From the NCBI RefSeq assembly GCF_000517265.1, contig NZ_AYSJ01000011.1, positions 410,341-447,432 on the forward strand: a stretch of 37,092 nt of DNA, in the 5' to 3' direction. A program made the translations under genes and the position numbers. Within the stretch, counting starts at the first letter, position 1; each line of letters starts with the position of its first letter. This document shows positions 23,635 through 29,494 of this stretch, piece by piece. This DNA comes from Photorhabdus khanii NC19 (GTDB lineage Bacteria; Pseudomonadota; Gammaproteobacteria; Enterobacterales; Enterobacteriaceae). The notes below the pieces were generated by a model that searched no databases, was not told where the DNA came from, and saw only the letters and a program-made list of their open reading frames with translations.

Positions 23635-24023
23635 AAGCCAAGCCTATTTAAAAAACGAAGGGGATTTTCGCGTCATCAGAAATGCAAGTTTAAAGAGCCT
23701 GTAATTTAAATTATTTATTTGCGGGTTTTATTATGCCAATTTTTTATCACCTATTATTTAACTGGTTTGTGAAAAAGTTTATTCCGTAGTTGAAATTGTT
23801 ATTAAAGCGGTTCATTTTGGAAAATATATTACTTAACTAACCTATTCATATTTTATTTATCTTTTTCCTCGGGCACATAAACATTAGCAAGGCCAATTTT
23901 TTCTTCTCATTTTCCATTGATAGTTTTATGACGGGCAAATTTTAAGCCTTTATTAAAGGCCGTTGTTTTACCTTCTAGTTTTAATCGGCATCAGGTTTTG
24001 ACCGTTGTTTTTACCACTTTTAA
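23635..24023. other. Non-coding left margin of the island with degenerate reading frame
   Basis: AT-rich DNA with no intact gene. On the minus strand, about 23870-24050, a frame with protein-like composition (KTTAFNKGLKFARHKTINGK) is broken by at least two stops, suggesting a decayed gene of unknown family. Confidence 0.4.
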
Positions 24024-24262: not shown

Positions 24263-24290
24263 TGTAAGAAATTGATGCGCAGTGCGACTA
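24263..24290 (+). promoter_or_regulatory. Candidate ECF-sigma promoter of the buf operon
   Basis: TGTAAG at 24263-24268, a 16-base spacer, then CGACTA at 24285-24290, about 70 bases before bufA. A similar arrangement, GGTGAG, 16 bases, CGACAA, precedes the sigma gene on the minus strand. GTAA-type -35 and CG-containing -10 elements with 16-bp spacing are usual for ECF sigma factors. Confidence 0.55.
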
Positions 24291-24362
24291 ATTGAGTGAA
24301 GCAAATGCTTGTTTCAGCAAAGCAGTAATTCACCTTCTACACAAATATAAAAGGAACGTTCT

Positions 24363-24656
24363 ATGACTAAGCAAACGACAAAAGCATTACTGGCCCTAGC
24401 CTTAGGCAGCGTATTTATTGCGGGAAGCACTTCAGCAATGGCGGATTCCGGCAGCAAAATGGAGAAATGTTATGGCGTTTCTCTGAAAGGGAAAAACGAC
24501 TGTAAAGCAGGTGCAGGCACCACCTGTGCTGGTACCTCAAAAATCGATTATCAGGGCAATGCCTGGAAAATGGTACCGGCGGGTTCCTGCGTAAAAATGA
24601 AGTCCCCGACCTCCCCGACCGGTTTTGGTCAACTAAACGCATTTAAAGAAGTGTAA
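24363..24656 (+). CDS. bufA: Bufferin/oxazolin precursor (DUF2282, BufA1-type)
   Basis: 97 residues. A signal peptide (about 1-27, ending SAMA) precedes a 70-residue mature part with four cysteines: C36 in EKCYGV, C47 in NDCKAG, C55 in TTCAG and C76 in GSCVKM. This is the DUF2282 pattern of BufA1 peptides, in which the partner MNIO enzyme converts cysteines to thiooxazoles and the periplasmic product binds copper. The start has AAGGAAC upstream and heads bufA-bufB-bufC-bufD. It is richer in G+C than the surrounding genome. Family assignment is firm; the metal bound here is inferred. Confidence 0.93.
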
Positions 24657-24692
24657 TTCCGGCACCAGGCACATCAGGCAGGAGCTCATACG

Positions 24693-25616
24693 ATGACAAT
24701 TTCTTTACCCCCACACAGCGTCTCTCGTGACGCTCCTGACCGCCTAATGCTAAATAGGCTTCCGACCAGAGCAGGGATCGGGTTAAAGCCGGAGCATTTT
24801 CGCGCTATCTTGCGCGATAAACCCGATATCGGTTTTTTTGAAATTCACGCGGAAAATTATCTGGTTGCGGGAGGTCCGTTTCATCAGGCACTGACCGCCA
24901 TTCGCCAGGATTATCCGCTCTCTATTCATGGTGTGGGCATGTCCATCGGAGGAGAAAACCCTCTGAATCAGCCCCACTTACAACGTGTTGCTGCGCTGGT
25001 TGAACGCTACCAGCCGGCCGTTTTTTCTGAACACCTTGCCTGGTCGACACACAACGATCTATTTCTCAATGATCTGCTGCCGCTGCCTTATACCAACGTC
25101 ACGCTAACGCGGGTCTGCGAACACATCGATCAGGTACAGAATGCGCTGCGTCGCCCCATTCTGCTGGAAAACCCGTCCACCTACATCGAGTTCAGTGCCT
25201 CAACCATGAGCGAAACTGACTTTATCTCCGAGGTGATACGCCGCACCGGATGCGGATTACTGCTGGACGTGAACAATCTCTATATCAGTGGCGTCAACCA
25301 TAATCGCTGCCCGTGGCAGATGCTATTCGAGCTGCCACTTCACTGTGTCGGTGAAATTCATCTGGCGGGCTATACGGAAAGCCGCGATGGGGCAAACGAC
25401 CTGCTGCTGATTGATTCACACGACAGTCATGTGACCGAGCCTGTCTGGGATCTCTATAACAAGACCCTGCGTGAAACGGGGCCGATCGCCACTCTGATCG
25501 AATGGGACAGCAATATTCCACCATTAGACGTGTTGCTGAACGAAGCCAGCCATGCCCAGCGTTACATTACGGAGAACGCGAAAAATGCAACAACAACTGT
25601 ATCAAGCACTTCTTGA
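24693..25616 (+). CDS. bufB: MNIO (DUF692) peptide-modifying iron oxygenase
   Basis: 307 residues, a TIM-barrel multinuclear non-haem iron-dependent oxidase. Likely metal-site residues are H79 (SIHGVGMS), E113-H114 (SEHLAW), E159-N160 (LLENPS), D192/N194 (LDVNNLYIS), H223 (EIHLAG), D244/H246 (HDSHV) and E270/D272 (EWDSNIP). In bufferin systems it modifies cysteines of BufA with help from BufC. It starts 36 bases after bufA behind AGGAG, and its 3' end overlaps bufC by 32 bases. Confidence 0.95.
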
Positions 25617-26334
25617 CCCCGACCTCACGGTACCAAAGGGGCTGACAGCCTGGAACGGTAGCGATCCGGCGGTACGTTTTGCGATTTATCGTAATAATGT
25701 CATAGCATCGCTGATTGACGCACTGGCCGAAAACTGCCCCGTCCTTCTCGCCCAGCTCGGAGAGTGCTTTTTCCGTGCGATGGCGGCGGAGTTTATACGT
25801 CAACAACCGCCTTCTTCTCCTGTTTTGGCGGGCTATGGCGCGCAATTGCCGGACTGGATTGCAACGTTTCAGCCATTAGCAGACTGGCCCTGGCTGAGCG
25901 ATCTCACCCGGCTGGAAATGTTGTTTATTGAATCGCTGCACGCGGCGGACCCTGCCGTACAAACGGCAGAAGCGGCCCCCGGTGACGATCCCGCACAGTT
26001 GCTGATGGAGATCCATCCTTCGGTACGGCTCTTCAGTTCAGATTATGCTGTCTTCAGCCTGTGGGCCTCACACCAACAAAGTGAAAACGAGATGGCGCTG
26101 GACCCATTCCAGCCGGAACATATGCTGCTGTGCCGTGTTGACGATGACGTGCGAATAATGTTGCTCAACCGTGCGGAAATGCAATTTGTTGCCATGATCC
26201 AGTCCGGTCGGTGTCTTACCGAAGCCCTAGATATCGCCGCCAGGGAAGATGCAATTTTTGAGCCTCAGCAGGTTTTACAACGCATGCAGCACTACGGGCT
26301 GATCCTTTCTCTATATAGCAACACGGAGCGCTAA
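25585..26334 (+). CDS. bufC: DUF2063-family partner of the MNIO enzyme
   Basis: 249 residues from the ATG at 25585, with CGGAGAA upstream; the frame extends further 5' but that part lies inside bufB. The N-terminal DUF2063 domain ([32 protein letters not shown]) is the partner that presents the precursor peptide to DUF692 enzymes. The C-terminal part (about 140-245) includes a winged-helix-like end. Overlap with bufB implies coupled synthesis of the two subunits. Confidence 0.9.
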
Positions 26335-26335
26335 A

Positions 26336-26815
26336 ATGGCATTACTCAAAATATTAGTGTTAAAAGGGCAACACATTGCACAGGAAAGTGTTATCCCCCT
26401 TCTGGCGCGCATTAGCCTTGCCGCAACATTCTGGTTGTCGGGCCAAAGCAAAGTGGTGGGATTAAACATAGATATTCTGGAGGCACGCACACCCTGGCAA
26501 CTAGGGATCCCGCGCGTTACCGACAGCTCCGTGTCGCTCTTTACCAGCGAGTACAAGCTTCCTCTGCTGCCACCCGATGTTGCTGCCGTCATGGCCGCAA
26601 CCGCAGAACATTTGTTTCCGCTGCTGCTGATTGTCGGATTAACGACACGCTTCTCTGCTCTAGCATTAATGGTGATGACGCTGGTGATTCAGATATTTGT
26701 TTATCCGGATGCCTGGCCTGTCCACGCTACTTGGCTGACGGCTCAGTTGTATCTGGTGACGTATGGCGGTGGGAGGTTTTCGCTTGATCGCCTGATTTAC
26801 CGCCATCGTACCTGA
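26336..26815 (+). CDS. bufD: DoxX-family membrane protein
   Basis: 159 residues with about four membrane segments. ARISLAATFWLSGQSKV and AATAEHLFPLLLIVGLTTR are typical DoxX stretches. DoxX proteins commonly close bufferin-type operons; the role is unknown, perhaps in redox handling or membrane association of the system. It starts one base after the bufC stop and ends 10 bases from the convergent anti-sigma gene. Confidence 0.88.
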   Translation: MALLKILVLKGQHIAQESVIPLLARISLAATFWLSGQSKVVGLNIDILEARTPWQLGIPRVTDSSVSLFTSEYKLPLLPPDVAAVMAATAEHLFPLLLIVGLTTRFSALALMVMTLVIQIFVYPDAWPVHATWLTAQLYLVTYGGGRFSLDRLIYRHRT

Positions 26816-26825
26816 TTCCCCTTCC

Positions 26826-27026
26826 CTACGTTACTTTATTTTGATTCTCGTTTTCGCCACGAGCGAATGCGGAAGTGATAGTGCGCAGGTCGGCAAGCTG
26901 TTGTCTGAAGTTTCGGCACCCGTCGCATATTCGCAAATGCAGCATCAGCTGAACATGTTGAGAAAGCACGATTTTTTCATCCAGCGCCTGAGACATCAGG
27001 CGCGTAGCTTGGTAACAACTAAGCAT
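26826..27026 (-). CDS. Short zinc-type anti-sigma factor
   Basis: 66 residues from the ATG at 27026, which sits in the overlap ATGCTTAG with the end of the sigma gene. It has no membrane segment. C4, H24 and the H30-x3-C34-x2-C37 motif (HLRICDGC) are the zinc anti-sigma (ZAS/zf-HC2) pattern, which often releases the sigma factor on thiol oxidation or metal exchange. The 8-base overlap supports stoichiometric production with the sigma factor. A longer frame extends upstream to 27086 but lies within the sigma gene. Compare MseR beside RpoE in Neisseria. Confidence 0.85.
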   Translation of the reverse strand: MLSCYQATRLMSQALDEKIVLSQHVQLMLHLRICDGCRNFRQQLADLRTITSAFARGENENQNKVT

Positions 27027-27609
27027 ATTTATCCTCCTGGGAAAACCAGCGTTGTGACAAACATTCGCGTAAACGCATACGCGCACGCCAGAGCATCACA
27101 TTCAGGTTGCTGACAGAGAGCGCCATCTCCTGACAGATCTCCTGAGTCTCAAGACCAATAAATTCGCGCATCATAAATGCCCGCGCGTTTTGCGTTGGCA
27201 ACTGTGTCAGACAAAGCTCGAAAACCGTCCAGAATTGCTCCTGCTCGGCCGCCTCATCCGGTAAATGCCAGCGCTGAAGATGCTCGTTTCGCGGCCAATG
27301 ACCAGATTCATCAAACAGCGCTTCGAAATTTTGCTCATCAATATCATCAGTCAATTGCACGCTGCTGTGCCGATAACGCATACGCAAGGCGTCCGAGATT
27401 TTGTTGCGCAGGATCGTAAACACCCAGCTTTTCCAGGCGGCTCGTCCGGCAAAAGAAGCGGCATTCTTCATCGCCCCTTCCAGCGCCTCTTGGACAACAT
27501 CTTCCGCCTGATGAAAATCATTCAGCTGCAAGCTGGCAAACTGCAACATCTGTTTATGCAGCATGGAAAAAAACTGCGGATCCCGCAGCAAATTACTGAT
27601 ATCGGACAT
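27019..27609 (-). CDS. ECF RNA polymerase sigma factor
   Basis: 196 residues with region 2 (NDFHQAEDVVQEALEGAM, SWVFTILRNKISDALR) and region 4 (ARAFMMREFIGLETQEIC, VSNLNVMLWRARMRLRECL). It belongs to the ECF type found next to DUF2282/DUF692/DUF2063 operons in Neisseria (rpoE-mseR locus) and similar to Caulobacter SigF. It is transcribed toward the buf genes with its anti-sigma gene following. Its own candidate promoter resembles that of bufA, which suggests autoregulation and control of the buf operon. Confidence 0.93.
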   Translation of the reverse strand: MSDISNLLRDPQFFSMLHKQMLQFASLQLNDFHQAEDVVQEALEGAMKNAASFAGRAAWKSWVFTILRNKISDALRMRYRHSSVQLTDDIDEQNFEALFDESGHWPRNEHLQRWHLPDEAAEQEQFWTVFELCLTQLPTQNARAFMMREFIGLETQEICQEMALSVSNLNVMLWRARMRLRECLSQRWFSQEDKYA

Positions 27610-27653
27610 CTTGGTTTCTATCTCAACAGGATTGTTCTGGATAACGGGTATTA

Positions 27654-27681
27654 TTGTCGGAATCGCTGAAATTCACTCACC
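27654..27681 (-). promoter_or_regulatory. Candidate ECF-sigma promoter of the sigma/anti-sigma pair
   Basis: Minus-strand GGTGAG (27681-27676), 16 bases, CGACAA (27659-27654), about 45 bases before the sigma start. It matches the bufA upstream element at four of five core -35 bases and at CGAC of the -10, with the same spacer. Confidence 0.5.
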
Positions 27682-28033: not shown

Positions 28034-28077
28034 GTCAGCAATCTGAAATGTGCACGTTCACCACGTGCACATTTTAT
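28034..28077 (-). repeat. Island boundary inverted repeat, right copy (hairpin after yiiM)
   Basis: Reverse-orientation copy of the element at 23591-23634, with the same perfect 12-bp arms (28046-28057, 28063-28074) and the inward extension CAGA-nn-GCTGAC. Its outer end overlaps the last base of the yiiM stop codon. Loop bases are entirely different from the left copy. Confidence 0.85.
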
Positions 28078-28748
28078 TACTTCCCGAACAATCTACGGTT
28101 AAAATCCTCAATCTTTCCAAACATAACCCGCTTTTGCATCGTCAGACTCCAACTGGCGGATAACCCAGCTGTACTCATCAATCTCCGATACTGTTCTTCA
28201 TCAAATGGCATATTAAAAACAATCGCTATCGCTTCTTTAACCAAAACATCACTATTACGGGAAATAAGAACAAAAGGCTCATCCGGGCTAACATTTCCCG
28301 CTAAAATAATTCGGTAAAGCCAGCCACAACGACCACTCCCCTGCATAATGGCAGAAAAATTACTGATACCGGAATGAGAATTGAGTTTGTAACAAGGCGA
28401 GCGAGGCTGAGTTACCTGAAGCATGGCCTCTCCCCAACGGAAAATATCACCAATACAAACATTCTCTTCAGTCAGGCCAGTTGTGGAAATATTTTCGCCA
28501 AACGCTGGAGCAATAAAGAAATCTTCCTGATCAGGAAATTGATGTTTCCAGAAATCGTAGTGTTCGCGAGGATAATGGCAAAGCGCACGATCGGGGCCAC
28601 CATGGACGCGGGTTTCAGCCTGTTCATCACCTTCCAATCCAAGAGAAGTCAGACGCAGGCTGCCATCAACCATCCGTTTGTTAATTGCACTGGCAGACAG
28701 TTTTTCTGATATTTCAATTTTGCCTGTATATACCTGCGGATAATACAT
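28077..28748 (-). CDS. yiiM: YiiM, MOSC-domain molybdoenzyme
   Basis: 223 residues, about the same as E. coli YiiM. LGLEGDEQAETRVHGGPDRA, HYPREHYDFW and the Moco-cysteine motif QPRSPCYKLN are conserved. Family members reduce 6-hydroxylaminopurine and other N-hydroxylated bases using molybdenum cofactor. It is convergent with trpS across the buf island; sodA lies upstream on the same strand. Confidence 0.95.
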   Translation of the reverse strand: MYYPQVYTGKIEISEKLSASAINKRMVDGSLRLTSLGLEGDEQAETRVHGGPDRALCHYPREHYDFWKHQFPDQEDFFIAPAFGENISTTGLTEENVCIGDIFRWGEAMLQVTQPRSPCYKLNSHSGISNFSAIMQGSGRCGWLYRIILAGNVSPDEPFVLISRNSDVLVKEAIAIVFNMPFDEEQYRRLMSTAGLSASWSLTMQKRVMFGKIEDFNRRLFGK

Positions 28749-28867: not shown

Positions 28868-29494
28868 TTATTTCACTTTTTCCTGATAACGTTTTGCAGC
28901 TTCATCCCAGTTAACAACGTTCCAGAACGCTTTAATGTAGTCAGGACGACGGTTTTGATACTGCAAGTAATAGGCATGTTCCCAAACATCCAGACCAACA
29001 ATTGGATAGCCAGAAGCACCGGAAATAGCTTCACCCATTAATGGGCTGTCCTGGTTAGCAGTAGATACAACCGCCAGTTTGCCATCATCTTTCAGTACTA
29101 GCCACGCCCAGCCGGAACCAAAACGAGTCGCTGCCGCCTGCTCAAATTTCTCTTTAAAAGAATCCACACTACCGAAATCACGTTCAATAGCTTCTTTTAA
29201 TGGGCCTTGCAAAGCTGTCCCTAATTTCAAACCCTTCCAGAATAGGCTATGGTTAGCATGCCCACCAGCATTGTTACGTACAAAAGTACGTTTATCAGCA
29301 GGTATCTTATCTAATTGCTGAATCAGATCATCAACATCCAGTTTTGCCAGCTCTGGGAAGGCTTCCAGAGCGCCATTGGCATTATTAATGTAAGTCTGAT
29401 GATGCTTGGTATGGTGGATTTCCATCGTCTGCTTATCAAAATGAGGTTCCAGAGCGTCATAAGAGTAAGGAAGAGAAGGTAGTAAATAGCTCAT
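28868..29494 (-). CDS. sodA: Superoxide dismutase (Mn)
   Basis: 208 residues from the ATG at 29494, which has GGAG about 8 bases upstream and gives [18 protein letters not shown]; further upstream in-frame starts are unsupported. Metal ligands are H27 (EIHHTKHH), the His in [10 protein letters not shown], and the Asp and His of [21 protein letters not shown] and the length fit the manganese type. It is divergent from acs. Confidence 0.97.

Follow-up and report, generated by a model that had tools for sequence, protein, structure and literature searches.

Does a bufferin operon in an insect-associated enteric bacterium have a regulatory switch of its own, and which stress would such a switch answer? 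The question is raised by six adjacent genes in a stretch of 37,092 nucleotides from Photorhabdus khanii NC19 (contig NZ_AYSJ01000011.1), referred to below as the window. Four of the genes resemble a bufferin operon, and the other two encode an extracytoplasmic function (ECF) sigma factor and its presumed anti-sigma factor. In our judgement the cassette is likely a bufferin-1 operon (bufferin-1 being a DUF2282 captophorin) that buffers copper under the control of a cytoplasmic thiol/zinc switch.

Bufferin operons with sigma factors are already in print, and the anti-sigma factor named for Buf1 is NrsF (PMC12452194). No report joining DUF2282 with an anti-sigma factor of the MseR or zinc-binding anti-sigma (ZAS) type, or describing the Photorhabdus operon, was found in open-licence full texts. 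The Photorhabdus cassette is a further example of a known system, and the pairing of a bufferin with an MseR-type anti-sigma factor is its less familiar part.

The first-pass annotation of the window had described a bufferin cassette of six genes with its own sigma switch. All six genes are present where it placed them (Table 1), with Pfam and NCBIfam matches and with small corrections to the starts of bufC and the anti-sigma gene; the start coordinate given then, 24263, is one base ahead of a conserved promoter-like site. Together with this site the genes span positions 24264-27609: bufA, bufB, bufC and doxX are on the plus strand, and the anti-sigma and sigma genes form a convergent minus-strand unit placed tail to tail with doxX. 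Their identification as a bufferin cassette is supported by family matches, architecture, conserved cysteines and purifying selection. Domains were called at the Pfam curated cut-offs and the NCBIfam model cut-offs. DUF2282, MbnB_TglH_ChrH, DUF2063, DoxX and two sigma-70 regions are above the Pfam cut-offs, and the anti-sigma factor is just short of that of zf-HC2 (20.0 vs 22.2 bits). BufB, the multinuclear non-haem iron-dependent oxidase (MNIO), also passes the NCBIfam equivalog MNIO_BufB (NF050167; 384.5 bits, cut-off 310). Two stretches, which together take up most of BufB, align with a DUF692 protein of solved structure (PDB 3bww), and His, Asp and Glu positions are common to the two proteins. 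BufA scores 26.2 against the NCBIfam BufA2 model, below the cut-off of 60, and neither BufA nor BufC has a relative in PDB at E up to 1.

Table 1. Features of the bufferin cassette, in window coordinates
Feature	Position	Strand	Details
Putative ECF-sigma promoter of the buf operon	24264..24292	+	-35 GTAAGAAATT, -10 CGACTAAT
bufA, DUF2282 bufferin precursor, 97 residues	24363..24656	+	PF10048, 87.4 bits (cut-off 22.4)
bufB, MNIO peptide-modifying enzyme, 307 residues	24693..25616	+	PF05114, 354 bits
bufC, DUF2063/PME1 partner protein, 249 residues	25585..26334	+	PF09836, 89.5 bits; start overlaps the bufB end
doxX, DoxX-family membrane protein	26336..26815	+	PF07681, 63.7 bits
Soluble anti-sigma factor, MseR/ZAS type, 66 residues	26826..27026	-	NCBIfam antisigmaE NF052368, 58.6 (cut-off 50)
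ECF sigma factor, TIGR02943/PRK12544 family, 196 residues	27019..27609	-	NF009196, 322.7 (cut-off 287); TIGR02943, 228.4 (cut-off 162.2)

The N-terminus of BufA, judged by eye, looks like a Sec-type signal peptide ending in AMA. Its four cysteines (Cys36, Cys47, Cys55 and Cys76) are all kept in 29 of 29 aligned rows. The six genes evolve under purifying selection: in 45 pairs of Photorhabdus genomes the ratio of nonsynonymous to synonymous substitution rates (dN/dS) is between 0.065 and 0.19, about 0.09 for bufA and about 0.065 for the sigma gene, which is one to three times the values of sodA and yiiM (0.06-0.08). BufC probably starts at 25585, with GGAG upstream, rather than at 25552. The anti-sigma factor is probably a protein of 66 residues read from the ATG at 27026, rather than of 86 residues from the GTG at 27086, and its gene overlaps the sigma stop by 8 bp. 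It carries Cys4, His30, Cys34 and Cys37, i.e., an upstream cysteine followed by H-x3-C-x2-C, and no transmembrane stretch was seen in it by eye. The Pfam and NCBIfam listings of the cassette proteins contain no match to NrsF, so that no anti-sigma factor of that type was found beside the sigma factor.

The link between the sigma factor and the operon is seen in the promoter. The site upstream of bufA (24264-24292) reads GTAAGAAATT-N11-CGACTAAT and resembles the published meningococcal σE consensus GTMAGBWTT / CGTCTAAH. Across 10 Photorhabdus genomes neither element changes, and the spacer between them varies. A pattern derived from Photorhabdus, from the genera designated g17 and g58 and from locus L119, GTAAGAA-N13-15-CGWC, is found upstream of bufA at 20 of the 24 loci with an adjacent sigma gene, a set without the bufA-less locus of Citrobacter gillenii and with each genome counted once. 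The four misses carry near-sites, with one mismatch at L190 and two at L188, L046 and L053. The pattern is missing from all 14 control loci (order or family) that lack an adjacent sigma gene; these controls are five family loci and a subset of the order, namely nine of its ten best-scoring loci. Among 69 other MNIO loci, mostly of Pseudomonas and judged to be without the sigma from flanks of up to 6 kb per side rather than from whole genomes, three have the pattern, two of them in Comamonadaceae; another observation on this set is a 30% match to an ECF sigma factor near L061. At the loci that were not used in deriving the pattern (L186-L192, six of the seven from one genus) the count is 5/7 against 0/14 (p = 0.001). 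The sigma switch of the first-pass annotation is thereby supported: the promoter tracks the adjacent sigma gene across cassettes and, as described below, its strict form occurs once in the own genome.

The same association bears on a different explanation, namely that a broader stress sigma factor merely lies beside the buf operon and the adjacency is incidental. In a sample of 394 genomes of the GTDB order, the TIGR02943 sigma factor (counted at E up to 1e-40) was found in 41 genomes and DUF2282 in 122. As many as 32 of the 41 sigma-bearing genomes have no DUF2282, so sigma factors of this family must control other genes there. However, in the nine genomes that have both, the two matches always start within 3 kb of each other on one contig (840-2809 bases apart, 9/9), and this holds across four arrangements: the sigma gene lies downstream in Photorhabdus, where it is convergent, and in g178 (six genomes), where it points the same way; it lies upstream at L192, where it is divergent, and at L193, where it points the same way. 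Since the promoter, moreover, goes with the sigma gene and two-mismatch sites show no excess over a reversed control, we consider incidental adjacency unlikely. At locus L193 (G457 C1:2240500-2247500) the DUF2282 gene is accompanied by the sigma gene and the promoter, and no MNIO, DUF2063, DoxX or anti-sigma match is present in the 7 kb examined.

The strict form of the promoter, GTAAGAA-N13-15-CGACWA, occurs once in the own genome, at bufA. It is present at bufA in all nine cassette-bearing Photorhabdus genomes searched, three of which have one further site each. Among the three Photorhabdus genomes that have no cassette the count is zero or one, the site being elsewhere, and in the two g17 genomes the further sites number two and three; a reversed-pattern control gave 0-3 per genome. 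Nine loci with strict sites away from bufA were inspected, and most of the sites fall within an open frame or overlap a start codon. One pair, present in each of the g17 genomes, lies across the start codon of a frame of 507 codons and thus cannot be the promoter of that gene. The other g17 pair and the sites at L129, L137 and L138 all fall within frames, read from either strand, that have 80 codons or more.

A wider regulon was considered on the basis of two-mismatch sites and rejected: the 34 such sites in three Photorhabdus genomes, three of which are the bufA promoters, are fewer than in the reversed-pattern controls (13 vs 33, 13 vs 45 and 8 vs 39). The context of 12 of these loci was inspected, 10 being non-bufA sites of the own genome (10/12). 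Two site families common to all three genomes are inside open frames at the four loci inspected. The own-genome sites L149, L152 and L158 are in none of the open frames listed; a forward frame has its first Met about 130 bases past L158, which has no counterpart in the other two genomes.

Because the own genome has a single strict site and no excess of two-mismatch sites, and the further sites are mostly in frames, no second target such as msrAB was convincing there, the upstream regions of the Photorhabdus msr genes not having been checked one by one. The sigma factor thus probably turns on the buf operon and little else; the absence of a second target is less sure for g17. A strict site of a different kind is shared by G008, which has the cassette, and G002, which has none (L133 and L127, 1501-1528 in both). 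A long frame has its first Met about 36 bases downstream of it; the site is absent from the other cassette genomes and from the own genome, and could be a promoter judging by its position. The frame that follows looks to us like a gene of the polyketide-synthase type.

Autoregulation of the sigma gene was also considered. A partial match, GTGAG-N16-CGACAATAA, lies upstream of the gene at 27651-27680 on the minus strand (by our reading of the comparison); its -10 part is not conserved in the other nine Photorhabdus genomes, and autoregulation was rejected as unsupported. Very limited self-control has been reported for RpoE2 of Haemophilus, which is a precedent for weak autoregulation.

By analogy with the published relatives, the cassette may act as follows. 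Under an inducing stress the cytoplasmic zinc/thiol anti-sigma factor would release the ECF sigma factor, which would guide RNA polymerase to the GTAAGAA-N14-CGACTA promoter and give a bufA-bufB-bufC-doxX transcript. BufB and BufC would then oxidise the two central cysteines of BufA to thiooxazoles in the cytoplasm, Sec would export the peptide, and its outer cysteines would form a disulphide; the published pattern of Buf1 likewise has modified central cysteines and an outer disulphide (PMC12452194). The exported peptide would sequester excess periplasmic copper, in line with the copper binding and the better growth under copper excess that have been published for bufferin relatives. DoxX is expected to assist at the membrane.

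Four known systems can be compared with this scheme. The sigF-nrsF locus of Caulobacter vibrioides (CC3252-CC3257), which we take to be its bufferin-1 operon, is alike in the DUF2282 precursor, MNIO, DUF2063, DoxX and the adjacent ECF sigma factor. Its putative anti-sigma factor is NrsF, whereas that of Photorhabdus is of the MseR type. Its promoter is GTAACC-N16-CGAA with a highly similar copy upstream of sigF, whereas the sigma gene of Photorhabdus has no conserved copy of GTAAGAA-N14-CGACTA upstream. Caulobacter σF responds to chromium and cadmium.

The rpoE-mseR locus of Neisseria (NMB2140-2145) is alike in the order of sigma and anti-sigma genes, in the Cys4/His30/Cys34/Cys37 set, in the promoter and in genes of the MNIO-PME1-DoxX type. 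Meningococcal MseR binds and inhibits its sigma factor, and its cysteines are needed for activity while His30 is not (PMC2893595). The precursor in Neisseria is an EGKCG-repeat peptide (gonophorin of N. gonorrhoeae; PMC13097082) and not a DUF2282 protein. All genes there form one operon with msrA/msrB as a second target, whereas in Photorhabdus the sigma unit is convergent and one target was found.

The rpoE2-hrsE system of Haemophilus influenzae shares a cytoplasmic ZAS anti-sigma factor of 67 residues, limited autoregulation and control of a DoxX-DUF2063 cluster. This DoxX/MNIO cluster presumably corresponds to the oxazolin hvf genes. The Haemophilus sigma gene adjoins its targets msrAB and dmt, with the DoxX cluster elsewhere, unlike the Photorhabdus cassette, and oxazolin is a peptide of the EGKCG type (PMC13097082), unlike the DUF2282 precursor. 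Finally, gigPABT-rpoQ-rsqA of Cupriavidus metallidurans is alike as a bufferin operon (classed so in PMC12452194) with an ECF sigma neighbour. RsqA is a divergent, predicted membrane-bound anti-sigma factor, unlike the soluble one of Photorhabdus, and the induction of gig by copper and gold is not demonstrably via RpoQ.

The relatives also suggest that the operon might chiefly serve defence against oxidants (hypochlorite, peroxide) or reactive sulphur, with the peptide scavenging oxidants or protecting together with DoxX and with copper secondary. The cytoplasmic thiol type of the anti-sigma factor fits this. Expression of Haemophilus rpoE2 goes up with HOCl and H2O2, RpoE2 controls msrAB and the doxX cluster, and oxidative stress is named among the inducers of 5-thiooxazole (5TO) pathways. 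On the other hand, the meningococcal rpoE and msrA/msrB transcripts are reported as unchanged with H2O2, diamide and singlet oxygen, and the characterised captophorins generally bind copper. The own genome, with the msr upstream regions not checked singly, has no convincing second-gene promoter, whereas msrAB is a target in both Haemophilus and Neisseria. A chiefly oxidant-directed role is possible, though we find it doubtful.

For the copper-buffering reading itself, several points count on the other side. BufC and DoxX are below the cut-offs of the NCBIfam equivalogs HvfC (52.3 vs 142) and HvfX (49.2 vs 80). The counts in the promoter comparison are not independent, because a few lineages dominate and some of the loci served to derive the pattern: ten of the 24 sigma-bearing loci are from Photorhabdus and six from one other genus, and with one row per lineage the result is 6/8 against 0/4 (p = 0.06). 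A conserved promoter copy is missing upstream of the sigma gene, which leaves self-amplification of the switch unsupported. Lastly, the copper and oxidant roles both rest on relatives, whose published signals conflict. We regard as about evenly balanced the chances of a more specific proposal: that this is a one-target switch in which a DUF2282 operon, an MseR-type anti-sigma factor and a private GTAAGAA-N13-15-CGWC code have been kept together across at least three arrangements and presumably moved between bacteria together, so that in Photorhabdus a periplasmic copper buffer alone answers a cytoplasmic redox or metal signal.

Copper could also be the object of acquisition rather than buffering, with the cassette producing a methanobactin-like chalkophore; P. 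luminescens TT01 has been reported to carry an operon of the methanobactin-like kind. That operon is probably another locus, as G006 (a single-contig Photorhabdus genome of 5.69 Mb) has separate MNIO matches. The cassette MNIO scores 45.6 against the MbnB cut-off of 325, its partner is a DUF2063 protein, and none of the six genes is a MATE exporter or a TonB receptor by Pfam, which makes acquisition very improbable. The weaker MNIO matches of G006 are at C1:584257-584946 and 585370-585804 (L184, L185), and this pair is perhaps the operon reported for TT01.

The first-pass annotation called the cassette unexpected in an enteric genome. This stands for the GTDB family, where DUF2282 was found in 12 of 295 sampled genomes and 5 of 154 genera (three of the 12 genomes being Photorhabdus), but not for Photorhabdus, where 9 of 12 genomes, the own included, have it. 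The 122 of 394 genomes in the order sample belong to a GTDB order that is wider than the classical enterics. Clusters of MNIO and PME1 have been described as depleted in Enterobacterales (PMC13097082, 2026). Of the 251 relatives that a scan of named genomes for the MNIO returned, 80 were kept: eight loci of Photorhabdus share 94-95% identity with it, a Citrobacter follows at 70%, and those after it, at 58-64%, are mostly from Pseudomonas. In the family sample the convergent sigma unit adjoins the operon in Photorhabdus and in the genera g17 and g58 (four genomes inspected), and no such sigma is near the operon in g72 and g25 (four genomes, inspected with their flanks).

The cassette was probably acquired horizontally. 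Its G+C content is 50-55%, against about 42-47% in the flanking genes, and it is inserted between trpS and yiiM, an interval that has no cassette in G002 and G003 and contains other sequence there instead. A clean empty site was rejected: instead of a direct join, G002 and G003 have about 1.05 and 2.46 kb between their counterparts of window positions 23654 and 27866/27867, with no match to the window except a short repeat. DUF2282 was not found in G010, whose contig ends about 450 bases past its match at the insertion place. In the MNIO tree, where 16 of 50 inner branches are unresolved and the run gave a long-branch warning, Photorhabdus, C. gillenii and g17 group together (98/93), g58 is placed apart beside a betaproteobacterial row (88/84), and g72 and g25 are far away. 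The tree fits several separate acquisitions in the family.

Such an origin leads to the suggestion that the cassette is a non-functional passenger left by the transfer. Foreign G+C, the patchy distribution and a decayed-looking copy in C. gillenii would agree with this, but low dN/dS in all six genes and the invariance of the promoter elements argue against it, and we give it very little credence. The C. gillenii locus (L026 3446-8847) is a shortened buf/sigma locus. It looks decayed because bufA is unrecognisable, the MNIO match begins at residue 29 and the anti-sigma factor is a 29-residue piece alone. The genes directly upstream look to us like type VI secretion components.

Photorhabdus is a genetically studied insect pathogen, and it offers an apparently intact bufferin system with a clear promoter in a family with few systems of this kind. 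Pairing of sigma factor and promoter is a simple means of finding bufferin operons under this switch, and it opens a way to learn which signal captophorins truly answer, be it copper, an oxidant or another one. As to copper, no CusA/CzcA-type metal pump above the model cut-off was found in the five Photorhabdus genomes tested, three of which have no cassette, which hints that a periplasmic copper buffer could matter more in this genus. Of two other enterics with the cassette, G172 has such a pump and G068 has none. The own genome and four relatives have two multicopper-oxidase matches each.

The genes directly beyond the cassette are yiiM and sodA, which encodes [Mn] superoxide dismutase (window 28868-29494). 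They are found next to this place in genomes with and without the cassette, therefore they are probably merely the insertion neighbourhood. A short palindromic repeat lies at 28035-28081, between the sigma and yiiM genes, and other Photorhabdus genomes contain comparable stretches, repeated in the interval from trpS to sodA. Other MNIO genes were seen as well: G002, which has no bufferin cassette, has a match at C3:122480, and the own genome has a second MNIO gene (L183; G000 C15, around 258031-258807), below all NCBIfam equivalog cut-offs. The latter follows a 284-residue protein without an NCBIfam match and a 23-codon frame ending in ...CNSVDCP (510-581, by eye), and is possibly a separate MNIO peptide cluster.

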